Shown one piece after another: positions 3,099 to 16,027 of a stretch of 64,000 nucleotides of DNA. The translations under genes were made by a program, and so were the position numbers. Position 1 is the first letter of the stretch; every line of letters starts with the position of its first letter. A model generated the notes under the pieces. It did not search any database. It was not told the DNA's origin and saw only the letters and a program-made list of their open reading frames with translations. The stretch lies in contig CP011265.1 in NCBI GenBank assembly GCA_000972765.1, positions 1,612,001 through 1,676,000 on the forward strand, in the 5' to 3' direction. The DNA is from Verrucomicrobia bacterium IMCC26134. GTDB taxonomy: Bacteria > Verrucomicrobiota > Verrucomicrobiia > Opitutales > Opitutaceae.

Positions 3099-5774
3099 TT
3101 ATTCTTCGCGGTCGGAGGGGAGGTCGGCCCCCCAGAGTCCCACGAAGTAGCTCACGGTGAAACCGGTTCCGACGACGAGAGCGCCCAGCGCGGCGAGCTG
3201 AAAAGCGGGCACAGCGAAGGCGAGCGTCCAGCCGAAGGACTGCTTGTTGATGACGTGTATGAGCACCCAGCCGAGTGCGAAACTGAGCGCGAGGCCGGAT
3301 GCGGTGGCGCACAGCGCGAGCACGCCGCCTTCGATGGCCGTGGCACGGGCTATCTCAGCGCGACGAAAACCAAGGGCGCGCAAGGTGGTGAGTTCGTCGC
3401 GGCGATCGAGGAGCACACTTACGAGGGTGAGGGCGAGTCCCGCCACGGCCACGACCACGCCTATGCCTTCCAGCGCGTAGGTGATGGAAAAGGTTTGGTG
3501 AAAGATACGTAGAACTTCGCCCCGTAGCGCGACATTGGTGTAGATCGAGAGTCCGGGATGGGCGGCGAGCATGTCGGCACGAACGGTCTCCGGGGTGGTT
3601 CCAGCCCGCAGGTCGAGTGAAAGACTGGTGACATGCTCGTCGCCGCCGAACCATTCCACGGCGTGGCTGCGCTCGACGAGAAGGGTTCCCCGTTCGTTGC
3701 CGTAGTCTGCGAACACGCCCGCCACGTTTAACTTACGTGGTCCGGTTGGTGTAGGCACGACAATCGATTGCCCTCTTCGCACCTCGAAGCGGTCGGAAAA
3801 ACTTTCGCTCACCAGCGCGGCGGTGGTGTTTTGCGAGGGAGTGAAAACAGATTGATCGAGCGGCGGCTGAAGCCACATGAATCCCCCCCGGTTGTTTTGT
3901 GCGGCTAGATCGGTGCCGCCGAGCGTCGTGGGCAGACCATCGATTTGAATTGGATAGGCGTTGAACAGCGCGGCGCGTTCCACGGCGGCATGCGTGGCGA
4001 TGGCGCGCCAAGTAGCGGAGGAGATGCGGTTGTTGCTGGATGCGCTTTGCGCGCCCTGACTGGAAAGATACAAATCGGCCTGGAGGGCGGTGTTGATCCA
4101 GGTGCGAACGGAGCGCTCGAAGCTGGCGACAAGAATAGCCATGCCAGCGGCCATACCGATGGCGCAGACCAGGGCGGCGGCGGCGAGCCGGTGACGGCCG
4201 GTGGGGCGGCGGACATGGCCAAGGGCGACCCGCCATGTCGCGCCGCGGTTTGAGAATGGCGCTAACACACGGCCTAATACCGGAATCGAGAGCGCGGCGA
4301 GGACACCTCCTCCAATGATGCCGCAGAGGGCGGCGGCGTGGCCTGCCAAGGGGAAGCGATTTCCACCTGCCAATTCTAGCGGCGGGACTTGTGTGAGCAA
4401 CGCTGCGGTGCCGAGTGCAGCCAACGCCAGCGGCCAACTGCGGAGCCAGGGTCCGCCGATCGTGCCGGGCGCCCCCCTCACGAGCACCTGTGCCGGTGGG
4501 GTCAGCGCGGCGGCGCGTGCGGGCGCCCAACCTGCTGCAATACTGGCAACCACGCCGGCAGCCAATCCTACGCCCGCCTCCGACCAACCAAGTTGGGCTG
4601 CTGATACGCTGGTGGCGTAGTAAAGGGCGTTGACCGTCTGACCCACGGCGCGCACGGCGAATTGCGCGCCAAGCCAGCCCAGCAGCAGCCCCATCGCGCC
4701 GCCTGCCAGTCCAAGTAGCGCGGCTTCGATCAGCCAGGCGCGTCGAATCACGCCGGCATCGACCCCGAGTGAACGCAGAATGGCTATTTCGGCTCGCCTT
4801 CGCACGACCGCGCCGTCCAGGGCTTGGAAGACCAGGTAAAGCCCGACCAGCAATGCAATGAGCGAAAGCACGGTGAGGTTAAGCCGGAAGGCCTGGGTCA
4901 TCGTCGCAGCTGTCTCGCGTCGTGCCCCGGGAGTCGTAGCCAGCCAGCGCTCTCCCTCGGCGTTGCGACCGAGCGCGGCGAGACGTTCTCCAAGGATGAT
5001 ACGGCGGTTCGCGAGCGCTAGCCCGGCCTCGAGGACAAATTCAATCCGGTCCAGCCGGCCCTCGCGACCGACGAGGCGTTGCAACTGAGGCAAGTCTAGG
5101 ACCACGAGATTGGCGGGGGCGGCCGGCCCGTCCGGCACTTGCGGAATGAAACCGGCGACGGGCAACGAGAGTGCGCGGTCGTTGATCACCAGATCGAGTG
5201 TCGCTGGTGCGCTTGCACCGGAGTTGAGCGCCGGACTGACCCAGAGGCGCGGGTTGTCCTGGAACAAAGTCCAGAAGTCTCCCGTTGAGGACGTGGCGGT
5301 TCCTTGCGCAGGTTTGGTCCGGCCAAAGAAGGATTCGGAGGCGGCTTGTTGCCCTGCCAGATTACTGACGCCGACTAGATCAACACCGAGCAACGTATAG
5401 GTCCGGCGGGAGAATCCCGTGGCCGGCGCTTTGTCCTCACGTGTGGTTTCGGTGGCCGTGCTCTCCACGACCGGGTGAATCTGCACCGCCAGATCGAGGA
5501 GGGCTTCGCGTAATTCGGGCAGGATGTTTTCGGGCAAGGTTCCGGCAGGGGCCTGGATTATCCAGTCGCTGCGGCCGGTGAGCGTCTCGGTAAAGTGGGT
5601 GAAGCTGGATACTGCCGCCCGATTCGCCAGACGCACGGCAGTAAAAACGCCCACGCCGAGCGCCAGGATAAGCACGAGTAAAAGATTTTGCCCGAATGCA
5701 TGCCGCCAATGGCGTTGCGTGAAGAGCCGCAATAGGAGCGGAGTGAGGGAAGGTGATTTGGTGCGGCCGGACAT
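3099..5774 (-). CDS. FtsX-like ABC permease, two-domain fusion (AttF-AttG type)
   Basis: The 891-residue membrane protein has one anchor near residues 25-48, a periplasmic MacB-type domain, then three helices and a signature ExxLLRSLG-like cytoplasmic loop (RRRAEIAILRSLGVD). Around residue 450 the pattern starts again, with further helices and a second copy (RRDELTTLRALGFRRAEI) near the C-terminus. About ten helices are visible in total. This is the layout of large FtsX-family permeases of the LolE/YbbP/AttF-G type, where one chain carries two permease halves. The ATPase gene ends 26 bases upstream and the AttH-like gene follows. The exporter probably moves a lipid, lipoprotein or toxic compound to or from the outer membrane, but the substrate cannot be read from sequence. 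Confidence 0.85.
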   Translation of the reverse strand: MSGRTKSPSLTPLLLRLFTQRHWRHAFGQNLLLVLILALGVGVFTAVRLANRAAVSSFTHFTETLTGRSDWIIQAPAGTLPENILPELREALLDLAVQIHPVVESTATETTREDKAPATGFSRRTYTLLGVDLVGVSNLAGQQAASESFFGRTKPAQGTATSSTGDFWTLFQDNPRLWVSPALNSGASAPATLDLVINDRALSLPVAGFIPQVPDGPAAPANLVVLDLPQLQRLVGREGRLDRIEFVLEAGLALANRRIILGERLAALGRNAEGERWLATTPGARRETAATMTQAFRLNLTVLSLIALLVGLYLVFQALDGAVVRRRAEIAILRSLGVDAGVIRRAWLIEAALLGLAGGAMGLLLGWLGAQFAVRAVGQTVNALYYATSVSAAQLGWSEAGVGLAAGVVASIAAGWAPARAAALTPPAQVLVRGAPGTIGGPWLRSWPLALAALGTAALLTQVPPLELAGGNRFPLAGHAAALCGIIGGGVLAALSIPVLGRVLAPFSNRGATWRVALGHVRRPTGRHRLAAAALVCAIGMAAGMAILVASFERSVRTWINTALQADLYLSSQGAQSASSNNRISSATWRAIATHAAVERAALFNAYPIQIDGLPTTLGGTDLAAQNNRGGFMWLQPPLDQSVFTPSQNTTAALVSESFSDRFEVRRGQSIVVPTPTGPRKLNVAGVFADYGNERGTLLVERSHAVEWFGGDEHVTSLSLDLRAGTTPETVRADMLAAHPGLSIYTNVALRGEVLRIFHQTFSITYALEGIGVVVAVAGLALTLVSVLLDRRDELTTLRALGFRRAEIARATAIEGGVLALCATASGLALSFALGWVLIHVINKQSFGWTLAFAVPAFQLAALGALVVGTGFTVSYFVGLWGADLPSDREE

Positions 5775-8726: not shown

Positions 8727-11700
8727 TCACGCCGCGCCGATCTCGTAAATGTGCTCGAAGAGGGTGGAGCATTTCTTCTCGTAGATTTCCGGGGTGTAGG
8801 CGCGGGGGAGGCCTTCGTCCAAGGTGTCTTTGATGGCCGTGAGCACCGAGGCGCGGGCGCTCGCTTTTTGACGCCAGTCGAGCGTCAGCACGTCTTTCAG
8901 GCGGTCGTGGAGCAATCGGGCCACTTTTTTGACCTCGGCTCGCTCTTCGTCGGTGAGCGCTGGGTCGGGACGGGCGAGTAGATCGAAAATGGTGAGTTCG
9001 TCCTCGGACAGGTTTTCGCGGACGTGACGCTTCTGCTCTTCGCTGAGCGACCGGCTCAGTTTTAACAGCTCCTCGAAAAGCTCTTCGATGCTGCGGCTGC
9101 CGTTGTTGTAGGCCTCGATCAGTTCCTCGAACTTGTCGAGGTAGTCGGCCCGCGTGCGGTTGATGCGGATGAGCTTGTCGAGCTGGGCTCGGATGGCGGC
9201 TTTCAGGACTTCCAGGTCCGTGTTCTTGGTCTTCGATTTTTTGAAGCGCTGGGACAAGGCCTCGAAGTCGATGCGCGACAGGTCGAGCGGCGGCGGGCCT
9301 TCGGCGGCGATTTCTGCGCCGGTGATGGATATGTCCAACAACTCGGCAATCTGACCCATGACGTGGGTGATGTCGGCCGGGTTGGGGTTGAGCTTGGCAC
9401 GGATGGCCTCGGCTATCGCCGCGAGGCAGGACGCACGACCGGTGAACTCCACCGCCGCCGGGTCGGGCTTCACCGCGTTGTAGAGGGTGGTCACGTAGCG
9501 CTCGTGGGCAAAGAACTCGCGCCTCAGCGTATCGGGGGCGATCAGGGCGTTGACTGCATCATCTACTAACTGGAGCCGGTCAAAGCCTCCGGCGGGCAAC
9601 TGCTCGATGGCGGCCAGCGCGACGCCGTGGCCCGCGCAGAAGACGGTGGCGGCTTCGACCGCCCGGCGAAGCTCGGCCACCAGCTCCTGCTTGTCCTTCA
9701 CCGGATTGGTCCCGCCCTTGCCCGCGCCGTAGATGGCGAGCGCTTTTTCCAGCGAGGCGAAGACGTTGGCGTAGTCCACGATGACGCCACTGTGCTTGCC
9801 GGGGAACACCCGGTTGGCCCGCGCGATGGTCTGCATCAGCGTGTGATTCCGCATCGGCTTGTCCAAATACACCGTGGAGCAGCTCGGCGCGTCGAAGCCG
9901 GTCAGCCACATGGCGCAGACGAAGACCAGGCGCAGCGGGTCTTGGGTGTCTTTGAACTTTTCCGCCAGCGGCGGCTGCGAGTCGTTCATCCGCACGCGGT
10001 GGGGCGTGATGTCGAGGCCGAGCTTTTTCATGTGCTCGATCTCGTTTTGGCCGGGCGAGACGATCAGGGCCATGTCCGTGGTCGTGAGCACGTCGAGCCG
10101 CGCCTTGAATTCGGCGAGCTGGGCGAGTTGCTCGTCGCTGCGGTTGCCTTTGATCGAGTCGAGCTTGGCGATGGCTTTCTGGACTCGTGCCTGTTCCTTG
10201 GCCCAATGGGCACGCACCTTGTCGTGCATCTTGAGCGCGGTGGCTTTGTCTATGGAGACGACCATCGCCTTGCCGACAAAACCGCGCCCGAGGAAGTGCC
10301 GCACGATGTCCTGTGCCACCGTCTCTAGCCGGTCGTCGCGGGTGAGGATGTGGTATTGCTTGCTCAGCTCCTTCTCCAGCTTCGCTTCCTGCTCGGGGTC
10401 GAGCGCGGCCTGTTCGATGAGGTCGTAGATGTCGTCGTTGAGGCTGGGGTTTACGAGTTGCAGCTCGGGCGTGCGGTTTTCGTAGAAAAGCGGCACGGTC
10501 GCGCCGTCCTCCACCGATTGCTGGAAATCGTAGATCGAGACGTAGTCGCCAAAAACGTCGCGGGTGCGTTCCTCACCGGCGATGAGGGGCGTGCCGGTGA
10601 AGGCGAGGAAGAGCGCCTTGGGCAGGGCCGCGCGCATGTTGAGCGCAAGGGTGTCGTATTGGCTGCGGTGGGCCTCATCGGTCAGGACAATCACGTCGGA
10701 CCGGTCGCAGAGCAGCTCCGGGGTCTGGAACTTGTGGACAAGGGTGAAGACGTAGCGGTGGTTGCCGCGCAGGAGTTCGCGCAGGTTTGCGCCGCTGGTG
10801 GCGTGGCAGAGGTCTCCCTCGGCGTCGCCGACCGCGCCCACGGTTTTGAAGGTCTTGGCGATTTGGTCGTCCAGCTCCACGCGGTCGGTGACGACGACAA
10901 AGGTCCAGTTGCCCGGCACCTTGCGCAGCATCTTCTGCGCGTAGAAGACCATCGAGAAGCTCTTGCCGCTGCCTTGGGTCTGCCAGAAGACGCCGCCGCG
11001 ACCGTGGCCCTGACGCCGCGCTTCCAGCGAAGCGGTGATGGCGTTGTTTACGCCGATGAACTGATGGTTCTGCCCGAGGATTTTGACGAGACCGGCCTTG
11101 TGTTCCGAAAACAGGGTGAAGTTTTCCACCAGGTCGAGCAGGCGACTTTTGTCGCAGGTGCCGCGCAGCATGACCTCCAAGGAGACGCGGCGGGGTTCGT
11201 CTTCGCGCTCGATGCGCTTCCACTCGAAGAAACGCTCCCAATCGGCGGTGAGTGAACCCACGCGGCTGTCGGTGCCGTTGGAGGCGATGAGGAGAGCGTT
11301 GGTCCAAAATAGCGCGGGTATCTGCTGCTTGTAGTGGGTGAGGTTGTCGTCGAAGGCGGTGCGAGCGGGGACGCCGGGCTTTTTGAGTTCGATGACGACC
11401 AAGGGTAGGCCGTTGACGAAGCCGACGAGGTCGGGGCGGCAGGTGTAGAGCTGGCCGGTGACGCTGAACTGGCTGACGAGAAGGAAATCGTTGTTCGCCG
11501 GGGTTTCCCAATCCACCACGCGCAGGCGCTCGGTCTTTTGGCCGCCGTTATCGCGATCCGGCACCGAGACCTTGATGCCGTCTTTGAGCAGGCTATACAC
11601 CTCGCGGTTGGCCTGCTCCAGCAGCATTGTCGAACGGTCGCGAGTGAGTTCATCCACCGCCGCCGCGATGGCCTCGGGCGGCAGCGCGGGGTTGAGCCGA

Positions 11701-11882
11701 ACCAACGCCGCGCGCAGCCGCACCACCAGCACGACCTCGCCCTTGGTCTCGCGCCCAAGTGTGCCCGCCGCGCCAAAGATTTCCTCCGATGCCGACACCG
11801 TGGCCCAGCCAAGCTCTGCGAACAACCCGATGGCGGGTTGCTCGACGAGTTGGTCTTCGGTGTAGGCGTGGGCGGCGCTCAT
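8727..11882 (-). CDS. hsdR: Type I restriction enzyme R subunit
   Basis: At 1051 residues it has the usual HsdR length. The N-terminal nuclease domain shows the PDDEXK-type core (RPDLVGFVNGLPLVVIELKK). The motor domain has Walker A TQGSGKS, the DEAH-type box LTDEAHRSQYD, motif III FTGTPL and motif VI QTIARANRVFPGK. The C-terminal part is helical and charged, as expected for the region that docks on the methyltransferase. It starts only three bases after the stop of the DUF1016 gene and is last in the operon hsdM-hsdS-DUF1016-hsdR. With HsdM and HsdS it would translocate and cut unmethylated foreign DNA. Confidence 0.97.
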   Translation of the reverse strand: MSAAHAYTEDQLVEQPAIGLFAELGWATVSASEEIFGAAGTLGRETKGEVVLVVRLRAALVRLNPALPPEAIAAAVDELTRDRSTMLLEQANREVYSLLKDGIKVSVPDRDNGGQKTERLRVVDWETPANNDFLLVSQFSVTGQLYTCRPDLVGFVNGLPLVVIELKKPGVPARTAFDDNLTHYKQQIPALFWTNALLIASNGTDSRVGSLTADWERFFEWKRIEREDEPRRVSLEVMLRGTCDKSRLLDLVENFTLFSEHKAGLVKILGQNHQFIGVNNAITASLEARRQGHGRGGVFWQTQGSGKSFSMVFYAQKMLRKVPGNWTFVVVTDRVELDDQIAKTFKTVGAVGDAEGDLCHATSGANLRELLRGNHRYVFTLVHKFQTPELLCDRSDVIVLTDEAHRSQYDTLALNMRAALPKALFLAFTGTPLIAGEERTRDVFGDYVSIYDFQQSVEDGATVPLFYENRTPELQLVNPSLNDDIYDLIEQAALDPEQEAKLEKELSKQYHILTRDDRLETVAQDIVRHFLGRGFVGKAMVVSIDKATALKMHDKVRAHWAKEQARVQKAIAKLDSIKGNRSDEQLAQLAEFKARLDVLTTTDMALIVSPGQNEIEHMKKLGLDITPHRVRMNDSQPPLAEKFKDTQDPLRLVFVCAMWLTGFDAPSCSTVYLDKPMRNHTLMQTIARANRVFPGKHSGVIVDYANVFASLEKALAIYGAGKGGTNPVKDKQELVAELRRAVEAATVFCAGHGVALAAIEQLPAGGFDRLQLVDDAVNALIAPDTLRREFFAHERYVTTLYNAVKPDPAAVEFTGRASCLAAIAEAIRAKLNPNPADITHVMGQIAELLDISITGAEIAAEGPPPLDLSRIDFEALSQRFKKSKTKNTDLEVLKAAIRAQLDKLIRINRTRADYLDKFEELIEAYNNGSRSIEELFEELLKLSRSLSEEQKRHVRENLSEDELTIFDLLARPDPALTDEERAEVKKVARLLHDRLKDVLTLDWRQKASARASVLTAIKDTLDEGLPRAYTPEIYEKKCSTLFEHIYEIGAA

Positions 11883-11885
11883 GAG

Positions 11886-13118
11886 CTATTTCTTTGTAAA
11901 CTCCTTTTCCAGATCCTCCACGCTGGGCACGGCACCCTTCAGCTCCTTGGGCAAGGAATCCACCAACCGGGTTACGTAGCCCGACACGCCGATGGGCTTG
12001 GTCAAATCGCGCAACGCATACTCGGCGATCACCCGATTCTTGCTGCGACACAGAATCAGCCCGATGGACGGCTGGTCGCCCGCCTGCCGGAAACGTTCGT
12101 CCACCGCCGACAGATAAAAATTCATCTTGCCCGCCGCCTCCGGCGTGAAATCGCGCGCCTTGAGGTCGATCACCACGAAGCAGCGCAACTTCAGGTGATA
12201 AAAGAGCAGATCGAGATAAAAATCCTGGTCGCCGACCTCCAGGTGCACCTGCCGCCCCACCAGCGCGAAGCCTGCGCCCAGCTCCAGGAGGAATTTTTCC
12301 ACATGGGTGATCAACGCGTCCTCCACGGCGCGCTCGTTGGCGTCGTCGCGCAGGGTGAGGAAATCGAACAAGTAGGGATCCTTGGTGAGCTGCTGGGCCA
12401 GATCCGACTGGGCCGGGGGCAAGGTCGCCTTGAAATTCGTGACCGCCTTGCCCTGCCGCGTGTGCAGACCGGCTTCGATTTGCAGGGCCAGCACGTTGCG
12501 CGACCAGCCATGCTCGACTGTTTTGGCCGCATACCAGAGCCGGTCGGCGGGTGCAGTGAGCTTATCGAGGAGGGCGAGGTGGTGATACCAGGACAATTGT
12601 GCAAGCGGTGCTTGCACAATTGGCGACATCGCGGCGGAGATTCGTGCAAGGGGCGCTTGCACGATTGCCGGTTTGGATTTTTTAACCTTCCCCAATTGTC
12701 TAACAGGCTGTTGGACAATCTCAGCAGACGTGGTCAGGGAATCTGTCACGGCTTGTGACAGATTTGTATCGGCCAATTGTGCACCAGCCTGCTGCACAAT
12801 TACCGTCTCCGGCCACGCCCCGGCGAATGTGCGCATGTATTTCAGGTTGCGCGGCGAAAAACCCTGCTGACCGGGAAACTCGGTTTGGAGGTCGGCGGAA
12901 AGCCGGTCGATCACCTTGGCGCCCCAACCCTCCCGCTTCTGCCGGTCGAGAATCAACCGCCCGATGTCCCAATACAGCGCGAGCAATTCCCGGTTGGCGG
13001 CCAACCCAGCCTTGATCCGCGCCGACTGCACCCGTGCCTTGATGTCCGCCAGCAACGGCGCGTAGTCCGACGGCACCGCGGCGGTGGACTTGGCTGGTTT
13101 TGCAGGGCGTTTCTTCAT
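11886..13118 (-). CDS. DUF1016 / PDDEXK nuclease (YhcG-type) with palindrome-coded repeats
   Basis: This 410-residue protein has the two-part DUF1016 layout. The N-terminal domain (about 18-105) contains LYWDIGRLI, GWGAKVIDRLSADLQ and FSPRNLKYMRTFA. The C-terminal PDDEXK domain contains HVEKFLLELGAGFALVGRQ, then DFYLDLLFYHLKLRCFVVIDLKA and IGLILCRSKNRVIAEYAL. Between them (about 107-175) is a linker with five nine-residue repeats of the form IVQxxxxQL, and at DNA level each repeat is a hairpin palindrome. The native junction is probably the last copy, which runs into WYHHLALLDKL. It sits between hsdS and hsdR with 3-base gaps, so it is very likely co-expressed with the type I system. Its target is unknown. 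Confidence 0.9.
   Translation of the reverse strand: MKKRPAKPAKSTAAVPSDYAPLLADIKARVQSARIKAGLAANRELLALYWDIGRLILDRQKREGWGAKVIDRLSADLQTEFPGQQGFSPRNLKYMRTFAGAWPETVIVQQAGAQLADTNLSQAVTDSLTTSAEIVQQPVRQLGKVKKSKPAIVQAPLARISAAMSPIVQAPLAQLSWYHHLALLDKLTAPADRLWYAAKTVEHGWSRNVLALQIEAGLHTRQGKAVTNFKATLPPAQSDLAQQLTKDPYLFDFLTLRDDANERAVEDALITHVEKFLLELGAGFALVGRQVHLEVGDQDFYLDLLFYHLKLRCFVVIDLKARDFTPEAAGKMNFYLSAVDERFRQAGDQPSIGLILCRSKNRVIAEYALRDLTKPIGVSGYVTRLVDSLPKELKGAVPSVEDLEKEFTKK
12594..12801. repeat. Five consecutive palindromes inside the DUF1016 coding region
   Basis: The hairpins are: 12594-12622 (13-bp perfect stem CAATTGTGCAAGC, loop GGT), 12642-12664 (9-bp stem TCGTGCAAG), 12695-12719 (12-bp stem with one T/G mismatch around AACAGGCTGTT), 12740-12764 (10-bp perfect stem AATCTGTCAC) and 12775-12801 (9-bp perfect stem AATTGTGCA). 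On the minus strand all are read in the same phase, and each encodes one IVQxxxxQL-like nonapeptide (107-115, 120-128, 134-142, 152-160, 167-175). Confidence 0.9.
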
Positions 13119-13121
13119 GGC

Positions 13122-14348
13122 TCAATTCGTTTTGAGTTCCACCTGCCCCGACAGCAGGCGCGGCAGCAGCAGGTCGCGGGTTTGGCGGAGGTTTTGGATT
13201 TTCTGAATGTGCACCATCGCCGTTGATCGCATCGGACGGACCAATTCACCGAAACGCCTCTGGATGTCAGCTGGTGGCTCCACCAACTCCACGTTGGCGA
13301 TGGCGGTTCGACTTAATTCCGTCTGTCCAGTGGCCCCAACGCCGAGGCGCTCGAAAGTCTCTTGATGGCCGAGCAATGAGCAGCCGAAAAAGTCCAGATC
13401 AGCCTCTTTGTTGGGGCGCGCAATTGTGACGTGTGTATCCACCGTGCAGCGTTCCAATGTTTGATACACCTGCGCTACGCGGCCCAACGTGCCTACGCCG
13501 GTTGAATTGATGAGCACATCACCGAATCGAACCTGTTTATCCGGGGGTATGGCCTTTGTTTGTCGGCGTGCAGGCTCAGAGTTGAGGCGCTGGTCACGTA
13601 TGCACTTCTGGTTAAGCACCATTGAATCGCCGTTTTCGTCGTAGCTCGGGGAAAGCCCACGATTCAGATAAGCGGTCAATTCGCCGAGCTTCTTCACCTC
13701 CCAGCCTTGGGGGATGGGGCCGAGGGGGGAATCGACGCGGGGGACGGATTCGTGGCCGGGGTAGCGGAAGTGGACGAACCAATCGCGGTAGAGGGCGCGG
13801 GCCATCGACTCCAAGATGCGGATGCGCCGCTGACTGTTCTCCATCAGCTCGTCGTAGGCCGACAGAATGCCCGCGATCCGGCGTTGTTCTGGCAAAGCAG
13901 GTATCGCGATGCGAAATTGCCGAATTAACTCCTGATTAAGGTTTTGCTGTGCTGCTCCCTGTGCTTGGACCGTCAGATCACCTCGCGTTTGCAGGAGACT
14001 ATAAAAGACAAACCGCCAATCTGCTTTATGCTCATCAACACACAGACCGCAGATGGCTTGGTTTACAGTTGCTGGTTTTCGTAGCCACCCTAGCTGCCCG
14101 ACATTTGCCCCATACATCGCTACAAGAACAGTATTTGACGGGAAATATTTTGCAGCTGATCCAGCGAGACCCGTGTCAGTGATCTTTTCCTCTGTATCCT
14201 TAATTGATCCGTCGAGAAGTTCCTTGGACTTGACCCATAAGTGCCCATCGCTGCCGCTTGAAAAGTAATCTGCTCGATTACGTGAAGGCGTCCCCCCGCT
14301 AGAAATTCGGCTACAGATAGATTCGAGAGTCACAGAATCCATCGTCAC
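13122..14348 (-). CDS. hsdS: Type I restriction-modification specificity subunit
   Basis: The 408-residue protein has two target-recognition domains, each followed by a conserved helix. The first half ends with [40 protein letters not shown], and the second with the equivalent [25 protein letters not shown]. These helices set the spacer of the bipartite DNA target. The start overlaps the hsdM stop by four bases (ATGA), so the two are translationally coupled. The recognition sequence cannot be predicted by eye. Confidence 0.95.
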
Positions 14349-16027
14349 GCCTCCAGAATAGCCGCCACGTTGCCAGCGATGGTTTGTTCGAGGGCGCGGG
14401 CCTGTTTGTTCAGGGTTTCGAGTTCCTCGTTCAGGGTTTCGAGCTGGGTCTTAAAATCCTCGTCGCTCACCGCTTCGCCGGGGGCCACGCCGACGTAGCG
14501 GCCGGGGTTGAGCGACCAGCCTTGCGCGGCGATTTCGGCGAGGGTGGCGGCGCGACACAGGCCGGGCACGTCGGCAAACTTGGGTTTCTTGCCGAAGACT
14601 TCTTCGAGCTTCGCACCGGCTTCGTCGCCGCCGAGGGTGGTGTCGGGAGCTTCGCCGCGATAGAGGCGGACGAGGTTGGCGATGAAGCCGATCTGCGCGG
14701 GCGTCCATTCGCGGTGGGCGCGGTCCACCTGCCGATAGATATGGCGGGCGTCTATAAACAGAACCGTGTTGGCACGGTCCTGTTTACCCTCATCCCCGTC
14801 CCTTCTCCCAGTGGGAGAAGGGTGGCCGGCAGGCCGGGTTGAGGGTGGCGGAAGCGACGCTTTCGCCTTGTCGAAGAACCAGAGGGTGCAGGGGAGGGTG
14901 ACGGTATAAAACAGGTTTGGGCCGACGGCCACCATCACGTCCACGACGCGGCTCTCGATGAGTTTTTGCCGGATGTCCTGCTCGGAGGCGCGGGCGTCGG
15001 ATGCGGAGTTGGCCATCACGAACCCGGCGCGACCGGTGGCATTGAGCGCGGAGGCGAAGAGCTGAATCCAGAGGTAGTTGGCGTTGTCGGTGCGGGGCAG
15101 GCCGTGGGGGAAGCGGCGACCGGGGCCGACGGCGTCGGCGAGGCGTTCTTTGTCCACCGCGTTTACGTTGAAGGGCGGGTTGGCGAGGACGAAGTCGAAG
15201 CGGCCGGTGGCGGCGTGCGGGTCGTCGTAGTAGCTGATGGCCTGCTTGATGTCGCCCTCCAGCCCGTGGACCGCGAGATTCATGCGGCAGAGGTCGCCGG
15301 TGGCGCGTTCCTTTTCCTGTCCGTAGATGGCGAGTTCCTTGGCCGGGTTTTTCTGGTGCTCGGAGACGAAGCGGGCCGACTGCACAAACATGCCGCCGGA
15401 GCCGCAGGCGGGATCGAGGATGCGCCCGTGGTAGGGCTCGATGACTTCGGTGAGCAGGCGGACGATGCTGAACGGGGTGTAGAACTCGCCGCCGCCCTGG
15501 CCCTCGGTCATCGCGAATTCGGCAAGGAAGTATTCATAGACGCGCCCAAAGGTGTCGTAGTCGGCCGAGATGGGGATCTCGGACATCTTTTTGAGGAGCT
15601 GCTTGAGGAGGGTGCCGCCGAAGATGGTGTAAGTCTTGGGGAGGACACCGGCGAGCTGGGGGTTCTGCTGCTCGATGGCGCGCATGGCGTCGTTGACCTT
15701 GGCACCGACGTTGGCGGCCTCGGGCAGGTGGAGCAGGTGGTCGAAGCGGGCCTCGGCGGGCAGGTAGAGCATGCCCTCGGCGTGATAGGCGGCGGGATCG
15801 TCCACGCGGGAGCCGCGACGGGAGGAGGTGGAGGCGGCTTCGAGCTTGGCGCGCTGGAGGGCAAAGCGGGCCTCGGCGAAGCGGAGGAAAATGAGGCCGA
15901 GGACGGGCGCGGAGTATTCGGCGGCCTTCAGTCCGGAGTTGGCGCGGAGCTGGTCGGCAGCCGCCCAAAGTTGCTTTTCAAGGGTGGCGGAGGCGGTGTC
16001 TTTCTCCGAGGGGGCGATCCATTGCAT
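14345..16027 (-). CDS. hsdM: Type I restriction-modification methyltransferase subunit, with in-frame repeat insertion
   Basis: The 560-residue protein contains the N-terminal helical HsdM domain and the N6-adenine methyltransferase motifs: I in [10 protein letters not shown] and IV NPPF in [16 protein letters not shown]. It is the first gene of the operon. Around residues 394-414 the conserved path from LWFFDKAK to [17 protein letters not shown] is broken by a Pro/Gly/Arg-rich insert ([15 protein letters not shown] and onward). The DNA of the insert is a nested inverted repeat at 14786-14846. The reading frame is intact, so the subunit is probably active with an extra surface loop. Confidence 0.95.
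14786..14846. repeat. Nested inverted repeat inserted in frame in hsdM
   Basis: The inner stem CCCTTCTCCC / GGGAGAAGGG (14800-14809 with 14813-14822, loop AGT) is enclosed by an outer stem ACCCTCA / TGAGGGT (14786-14792 with 14840-14846). The sequence resembles the dispersed CCCTCA..CCCTTCTCCC palindromes that are common between genes in several bacterial phyla. Here it lies inside a gene and keeps the frame. Confidence 0.85.

Follow-up and report, generated by a model that had tools for sequence, protein, structure and literature searches.

A palindrome within DUF1016 (YhcG) nuclease genes covaries with two residues of the predicted DNA-reading helices encoded on either side of it

The DUF1016 (YhcG) gene of Verrucomicrobia bacterium IMCC26134, located in a 64,000-nucleotide stretch of contig CP011265.1 (positions 1,612,001 to 1,676,000; the window), carries five palindromes in the region encoding the linker between its two protein domains. 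Comparison with homologues revealed that such a palindrome recurs at the same protein position across the family, and that its bases follow two residues encoded outside of it, R90 and Y178 in the window protein. Judging from these sequences, a DUF1016 protein very probably reads the site within its own gene. The best explanation as a whole, that the protein recognises, as double-stranded DNA, the palindrome that codes for its linker, most likely for autoregulation, is in our view likely to be correct; autoregulation as the main use of the site, taken on its own, is a serious possibility that we place just below even.

The gene and its palindromes are arranged as follows:

11886..13118, minus strand: DUF1016/YhcG gene, an open reading frame (ORF) of 410 aa (Pfam DUF1016_N and YhcG_C; PADLOC PDC-S02; structure and fold searches); by model and fold comparison, the product is predicted to have a ParB/Noc-like DNA-reading N-terminal region and a PD-(D/E)XK nuclease domain.
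12594-12622: palindrome 1, perfect 13-bp stem with a loop of 3 (CAATTGTGCAAGC-3-GCTTGCACAATTG), encodes IVQAPLAQL; nearest to the W-x-H helix; fits the residue-base code described below for R90 and Y178.
12642-12664: palindrome 2, perfect 9-bp stem, loop 5, encodes IVQAPLARI; fits the code for R90 and Y178.
12695-12719: palindrome 3, 11/12 paired, loop 1, encodes IVQQPVRQL; with C at -7 and C at -3 it fits neither residue.
12740-12764: palindrome 4, perfect 10-bp stem, loop 5, encodes NLSQAVTDS; fits R90 only.
12775-12801: palindrome 5, 12/13 paired, loop 1, encodes IVQQAGAQL; fits R90 only.

The five inverted repeats lie within a stretch of 208 bases (12594-12801), and all of them centre on the first codon base of the gene. 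An earlier note made from this DNA alone had described five palindromes filling the inter-domain linker; both points were confirmed, and the arrangement lies far beyond chance according to RNA-fold shuffles and family-wide pairing tests. Its further claim that each palindrome encodes an IVQ-type nonapeptide holds for four of the five, but not for 12740-12764. The window protein belongs to the family with 137.7 bits for DUF1016_N (Pfam cut-off 32.8) and 214.6 bits for YhcG_C (cut-off 32.5), and an NCBIfam search with it returned no match. In the 4.0-Mb source genome, the only exact copies of the stem CAATTGTGCAAGC are the two arms of one palindrome, and the pattern GTGCAAGN5CTTGCAC occurs exactly at two places only, both inside the DUF1016 gene, with one one-mismatch place elsewhere. 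Loose matching gave 11+11 genome matches for the site pattern compared to 23+23 for a backwards control pattern. The comparison with Rickettsia palindromic elements drawn in the earlier note was therefore not supported in the sense of a dispersed element, as the only exact site of this genome is in the DUF1016 gene.

A DNA search using the linker alone matched cyanobacterial, betaproteobacterial, and Hymenobacter plasmid sequence, all of which encode the same linker position (the Hymenobacter copy of the gene is broken). Among the homologues of our genome_contigs set, 72 of the 79 mapped ones (19 named phyla, one archaeal) carry a palindrome at the same protein position; because this set comprises the 80 closest of 578 loci found, it leans towards the commonest subfamily. 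Palindromes were likewise present in 23/26 relatives, 16/23 viral genes, and 84/104 further verrucomicrobial genes. Profile alignment of all 245 mapped genes, which include several E. coli strains, identified at least one unit in 208 (one in 153, two in 33, three in 16, four in four, and five in two), with 284 of the 293 units centred on the first codon base, and many of the 37 genes scored as lacking a unit hold a shorter palindrome at the same place. The linker peptide varies widely (IRQTVSAES, ILSPLVTEL, IGQQSADQF) while pairing persists. The expectation that unit number can change was borne out: it ranges from 1 to 5 across the family, from five in the window gene to two in its nearest relative in the alignments (L089, 78% identity), and from one to three among 12 E. 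coli strains (three in six, two in three, and one in L131 (O157:H7), L135, and L136); K-12 yhcG has three palindromes at this position. The earlier note had named distant homologues with five units in non-palindromic DNA as the case that would speak for an old protein repeat, whereas the opposite was seen, namely mostly a single, palindromic unit. In three viral contigs (L161, L162, and L169), a second palindrome with a related stem lies upstream of the linker palindrome in the N-terminal part of the ORF (codons 88, 62, and 72, respectively).

At a fixed centre six codons before the conserved Trp, the 107 genes anchored by regular expression showed a mean of 9.80 out of 13 pairs, compared to a median of 3.4 pairs over 121 tested offsets; at least 10 pairs were reached by 73% of the genes at this centre and by no more than 3.8% at every other offset (37 of 144 genes were unanchored here and added later by profile alignment where mappable). 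Shuffling synonymous codons within each gene left 5.70/13 pairs (standard deviation of the mean 0.125; maximum 6.04 in 500), and 70 of the 107 genes individually reached p <= 0.01. The stem sequence changes between genes while its symmetry stays: of 101 distinct units, the 81 having 8 or more pairs are 91-98% paired at stem positions 3-9, and each of these positions features three or four types of Watson-Crick pair. Counting stem positions 3-11 in 259 distinct units gave 2232 Watson-Crick pairs, 23 G-T, 33 A-C, and 43 other mismatches, and an earlier, smaller unit set had 9 GT versus 10 AC at the same positions. Because an RNA hairpin under selection should tolerate G-U and no G-U excess was observed, selection at the RNA level is disfavoured, and the suggestion of the earlier note that the palindromes act as mRNA hairpins was not supported as the selected feature.

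Protein columns were scanned against stem bases, and those singled out included alignment residues 91 and 179, which correspond to R90 and Y178 of the window protein (its alignment row carries one extra residue). These residues and the helices they belong to are encoded on either side of the palindromes:

12816..12854, minus strand: first reading helix (predicted), residues 89-101; R90 (codon 12849-12851) tracks -7, and residues 93 and 94 track -9 and -5.
12561..12590, minus strand: second reading helix (predicted), residues 177-186, W-Y-H; Y178 (codon 12585-12587) tracks -3/-4, and residue 181 tracks -4.

In the discovery set, R90 was accompanied by G at position -7 of the palindrome in 56/56 genes, whereas A, K, S, T, or Q at this residue went with C or T. 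Residue 178 predicted positions -4/-3, with F giving GC (12/12), G giving AC (29/29), Y giving AG or GG (16/16), and S giving A at -3 (7/7). Residues 90 and 178 vary independently of each other: A90, for instance, occurs with F or G and S90 with F, G, or Y. These counts hold a few near-duplicates (L140/L146, L010/L123), and 10 rows had no mapped residue 90. The code was then confronted with verrucomicrobial genes fetched after discovery (104 anchored, 54 palindromic), of which none was at least 95% identical to a discovery gene and two were at least 80% identical (median 64%). In this held-out set, R90 again went with G at -7 in 27/27 genes, while only 2 of 27 genes with another residue had G, and residue 178 gave GC for F (5/5), AG for Y (7/7), C at -3 for G (9/10), and A at -3 for S (8/11).

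Shared ancestry was controlled for by independent pairs on a tree of the C-terminal domain, with exact duplicates removed for both the tree and the synonymous-site tests. R90 and G at -7 changed together in the same direction in 11.2 pairs and in the opposite one in 0.2 (median p 0.001), followed by Y, T, or W178 with G at -3 (9.1 versus 0, p 0.004) and S178 with A at -3 (6.8 versus 0, p 0.016); none of the negative-control residue-base pairings was significant on the tree. In the left arm, -7 is the third base of the Val codon (codon 2) and -4 the third base of the Gln codon (codon 3). Where codon 2 encodes Val, R90 genes use GTG in 67/68 cases, whereas other genes avoid it in 27/32 (Fisher 2.7e-18); elsewhere in the same genes the GTG share is 0.34 and 0.37, with no matching difference. 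Similarly, Gln at codon 3 is CAG in 18/18 F178 genes, but CAA in 54/57 genes with G or Y178. Both synonymous versions also held on the tree (8.0/0, p 0.008, and 6.4/0, p 0.016). Hence, the residue-base code acts at the DNA level and not via the peptide. In a ranking of 310 non-linker columns, residue 90 came first for -7 (z 11.0) and residue 178 first for -3 (z 10.2), with 93 first for -9 (z 6.5), 181 and 178 leading for -4 (6.1 and 4.6), and 94 for -5 (4.0).

Structure prediction for the window protein placed helices at model residues 69-81, 90-102, and 178-187 (model numbering is window numbering plus one), with a low-confidence linker in between, so that R90 and Y178 stand at the starts of the last two predicted helices. 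A single-unit homologue was predicted as a compact helical domain (predicted local distance difference test score, pLDDT, 89.6), and its reading domain retrieved ParB, Noc, and Spo0J DNA-binding domains at fold ranks 1-11 (Z 8.8-7.2; best match Z 8.8; 7bnk with a root mean square deviation, rmsd, of 2.3 over 94 residues), followed by KorB and SopB at lower scores; the first unrelated protein had Z 6.9. Structural comparison of the nuclease domain gave an alignment of 105 residues with 2vld (Z 12.5, rmsd 2.5) and a match to EndoMS 5gke (Z 12.2), an EndoMS/NucS-type resemblance. Its putative catalytic residues were located by residue mapping:

12159..12212, minus strand: PD-(D/E)XK catalytic residues D303 and D318-x-K320.

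They are intact in 205 of the 206 homologues that have a palindrome unit and could be mapped there. Sequence searches for solved relatives gave negligible matches only, the best being ribosomal uL24m for the whole protein (E 0.015) and one at E 0.12 for the reading domain.

E. coli offers a comparison among close alleles. K at the first reading position goes with C at -7 of the first palindrome (7 strain loci with both mapped; L127 by reading), and R alleles (L129, L132, and L133) have G at this position, with both arms changed. Comparing a K with an R allele (L138 and L132) showed 22, 18, and 30 differences per 60 columns in nucleotides 240-420 and 0-6 per 60 elsewhere; reading helix and palindromes are thus exchanged as a block. 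A yhcG copy covering no less than 80% of the gene length is present in 3310 of 5426 E. coli genomes. Two strains without yhcG, UPEC129 (L285 2001-2028) and Nissle 1917 (L286 2001-2028), hold exactly one perfect yhcG-type site, ATAAATTCGCCAGACAGTGTCTGGCGAATTTAT, between gltD and nanQ, and a downstream yhcG-type site was found in all six inspected E. coli loci with a yhcG end (L045, L126, L128-L131). In the IS1-damaged L126 (1712) and L130 (1588), one yhcG-type palindrome lies just past gltD and another before nanQ, flanking the gene on both sides. Breakpoints at nucleotides 385 and 406 were considered as domain swaps at the palindrome and discarded: the break at 385 in L126 is due to IS1, and in L127 a transposase gene comes after the break at 406. 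A second E. coli site elsewhere was also rejected; the median of two places per genome fits one palindromic site matched on both strands, a double match that was seen directly in one set of search hits.

Outside the genes, an own-type site occurs within 700 bp of the homologue in 10/208 genes with a unit, nine of them from E. coli strains (control mean 1.3). The only other case is L079, in which a perfect own-type site is located about 170-190 bp upstream of the DUF1016 gene. A promoter operator was not supported: strong palindromes within about 400 bp upstream numbered only four for the 208 genes with a unit and one for the 37 without. Within 300 bp downstream there were 12, 10 of these in E. 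coli strains. Exact searches of viral contigs with three site types yielded 11 places, four inside DUF1016 ORFs and seven outside, four of the latter with AATT ends; the outside sites may be gene remnants, since short frames there read IVQ-like peptides. On viral contig L291, about 4846-4955, four palindromes with different stems, including CAATTGTGCAAGAGGTCCTTGCACAATTG, cluster outside detected DUF1016 genes, and one AATT-ended site lies among them. Two further matches to the window site were noted, one in a Cetobacterium somerae plasmid (L301 1501-1527; 27 nt at 92.6%), where cas13c and a nucleotidyltransferase/HepT-like gene pair stand on either side, and a weak one (81%, E 8) in orf3 of Wolbachia phage WO (AB036665.1 3687-3718), whose annotation points to similarity with a hypothetical protein of E. 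coli.

From these sequence patterns we infer that a DUF1016 dimer would bind the palindrome two-fold symmetrically, with the outer bases -9 to -5 read by the helix that starts beside R90 and the inner bases -4 to -2 by the one that starts at W177-Y178, like the paired reading helices of ParB and Noc on parS and the Noc-binding site (NBS). Because the site sits between the codons of the two reading helices, the two form a cassette in which reader and site are passed on and altered together, and since the only exact site of the source genome is in the protein's own gene, its action must be local. The bound protein might then serve as a roadblock or repressor within its own gene and keep a potentially dangerous nuclease scarce. 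The idea of the earlier note that the palindromes are a target of the nuclease itself is backed by the residue-base code in the sense of probable binding.

Several observations weigh against this explanation. Only two of the five window palindromes match both reader residues, and palindrome 3 matches neither. Among 55 multi-unit genes, the -7 code fits 34/48 last and 60/76 upstream units, and the -3 code 46/54 and 68/84, respectively; in E. coli only the first unit obeys the -7 rule, as the K alleles carry G in units 2 and 3 and the R alleles C in unit 2. Accuracy in the held-out genes, which all come from the window's own phylum, was 39/50 (-7) and 44/53 (-3) for residues seen before, and the code is loose for some residues: held-out S90 splits 5/5 between C and T, and Q90 has C in 3/3 held-out genes, though two discovery cases had T. 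Informative tree pairs were too few for 178F with -4G (4.6/0, p 0.06), 178Y alone with -3G (4.8/0, p 0.06), and 178G with -3C (2.3/0, p 0.5). Near-promoter sites are rare, which would leave an operator to act from within the gene, and the viral contigs contain four AATT-flanked sites for which no surrounding DUF1016 ORF was found. Furthermore, the likeness to the ParB fold is moderate, as mostly helical models may reach Z of about 13 without kinship; Foldseek gave no significant match to a ParB-type fold (E about 1), and at the sequence level HTH_ParB matched 1 of 75 members (E 0.064), which lends ParB kinship no support.

The palindrome could instead be a cleavage target, with the nuclease cutting its own site and either homing into site-bearing alleles or excluding other copies. 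PD-(D/E)XK homing endonucleases such as I-Ssp6803I exist, the nearly invariant catalytic residues suggest that catalysis is kept, and UPEC129 and Nissle 1917, albeit only two E. coli strains, have the single intact site such an enzyme would seek. However, homing elements normally destroy their target by insertion, whereas the occupied alleles of E. coli and the window keep a matching site within the gene, and a cutting enzyme would therefore cut its own gene; the retention of yhcG across E. coli also speaks against it. We consider cleavage unlikely. A selfish or mutational origin, be it frame-compatible insertion or symmetry kept by template switching in a tolerant linker, would account for the unit number of 1 to 5 and for the L291 cluster, which has no detected DUF1016 gene around it. 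Symmetry can be restored by template switching, and this process may be the cause of unit duplication, but it yields symmetry rather than a match to two residues encoded outside the palindrome, and neither the single fixed position over 19 phyla nor the source genome, which lacks dispersed copies, fits a mobile element, so that we regard this origin as quite improbable.

Action of the palindromes as mRNA hairpins, through pausing, stability, or translational control, would be in keeping with the strong fold of the window stretch (-89.1 kcal/mol, z = -6.4; 0/200 shuffles fold as well), but palindromic symmetry by itself produces such folding. G-U pairs, which should be favoured in this case, are no more frequent in the stems than A-C, and hairpins do not predict that bases, including those at synonymous sites, track residues 90 and 178; the hairpin reading thus has very little probability left. 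Finally, the codons of an old protein motif, VQQxxAQLPW, might look palindromic by accident. The peptide is indeed partly conserved, and the pairs left by synonymous shuffling exceed those at other offsets (5.7 versus 3.4 of 13). Yet 9.8 pairs were observed, pairing is kept while the peptide varies widely, and the synonymous-codon tests, in which silent positions track the reader residues, refute this account, which we consider next to impossible. Binding by the encoded protein remains the explanation we favour.

In the window, the DUF1016 gene is the third member of a tight, operon-like row of type I restriction-modification genes (8727-16027), ordered hsdM, hsdS, DUF1016, hsdR:

14345-16027, minus strand: hsdM, upstream in the same row (13122..16027).
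13122-14348, minus strand: hsdS, directly upstream of the DUF1016 gene in this row.
8727..11882, minus strand: hsdR, beginning 3 bp downstream of the DUF1016 gene.

Of 170 DUF1016 loci, 36 have a type I gene that could be detected close by. Within these 36, hsdM lies upstream of DUF1016 in 23 and downstream in five, hsdR downstream in eight and upstream in three, and hsdS downstream in 13 and upstream in seven; the counts are small, the flanks short, and the 170 loci include the window gene itself (L172) as well as near-duplicates. In the window, bound protein could damp the downstream hsdR while sparing the upstream hsdM and hsdS. Controller (C) proteins of type II restriction systems time modification before restriction, and the gene order hsdM-hsdS-DUF1016-hsdR might, by analogy from this order alone, serve a similar end. 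Most DUF1016 loci have no detected type I gene in their short flanks.

The predicted fold of the reading domain and the palindromic nature of the site recall ParB-parS and Noc-NBS, in which two domains sit on a palindrome with two-fold symmetry, and also KorB and SopB. The covarying residues of DUF1016 start two successive predicted reading helices, one following the outer and one the inner bases, an order that agrees with reading of the ParB and Noc type. In contrast to these proteins, DUF1016 proteins carry a PD-(D/E)XK nuclease domain, a cytidine triphosphate (CTP)-binding ParB domain was not found in the window protein (Pfam gave only DUF1016_N and YhcG_C), and the site varies from gene to gene. 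For ParB, a site within the protein's own gene is known to us from B. subtilis spo0J only; for DUF1016, location inside the reader's own gene is the rule. In ParB, DNA is contacted by the recognition helix alpha4 together with alpha6 and alpha8, and replacing residues 173 and 201 changes which base is preferred at positions 1 and 6 (PMC7383237); residues 90 and 178 are presumably the structural equivalents of ParB 173 and 201.

Repetitive extragenic palindromic (REP) sequences are likewise palindromes for which coevolution with a DNA enzyme is described; they flank the genes of REP-associated tyrosine transposases (RAYTs; PMC2817692). REPs, however, lie outside genes, occur in high copy number, and go with a tyrosine transposase, whereas the DUF1016 site is intragenic, single or present in few copies, and accompanied by a PD-(D/E)XK enzyme with a predicted helix-turn-helix reading double-stranded DNA. 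Rickettsia palindromic elements are selfish in-frame palindromes inserted at many places, and palindromic amphipathic repeat coding elements (PARCELs) are part of DUF285 repeat proteins (PMC4316617, PMC2996958). Like both, the DUF1016 units are in-frame palindromic DNA in coding sequence, but they are confined to one gene family and one position, and Pfam domains revealed no DUF285-type 25-aa repeat in the window protein. For YhcG (COG4804, PF06250), of which the window gene is a member (PADLOC PDC-S02), the prediction of Kosinski 2005 (PMC1189080) comprises the nuclease domain and an N-terminal domain that is mostly alpha-helical and has no confident fold match; the consulted sections mention neither palindromes nor a DNA target. 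In the parts seen, PMC4316617 mentions DUF1016 and palindromes without relating them to each other, and PMC7967276 mentions YhcG and, separately, palindromes that are REP elements. In line with the earlier note, which knew of no description, the open-access literature searched, a scope that mostly leaves aside subscription papers and preprints, showed no link of the DUF1016/YhcG family to palindromes or a DNA target in the text available.

A bolder and rather unlikely extension is that DUF1016 proteins are 'self-addressed' nucleases, for which the own gene would be the sole chromosomal address, site and reader one exchangeable cassette, and the bound site a lock. As long as the gene is intact and in place, the nuclease would be held inactive or kept scarce, and gene loss or phage takeover of the chromosome would release it. 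If this were true, the gene would be addictive or a defence trigger, and the single site in E. coli strains that lack yhcG would amount to an antidote whose toxin is gone.

YhcG/DUF1016 proteins are widespread (19 named phyla plus viral contigs) and are candidates for phage defence (PDC-S02), for which we found no described target. The palindromes provide a likely target gene by gene, and the code yields testable predictions. To our knowledge, there is no other family-wide case of a recognition site that encodes the loop between its two reading helices and is exchanged with them. DUF1016 genes would thereby provide naturally matched pairs of protein and DNA specificity, a series in which the evolution of specificity could be studied.

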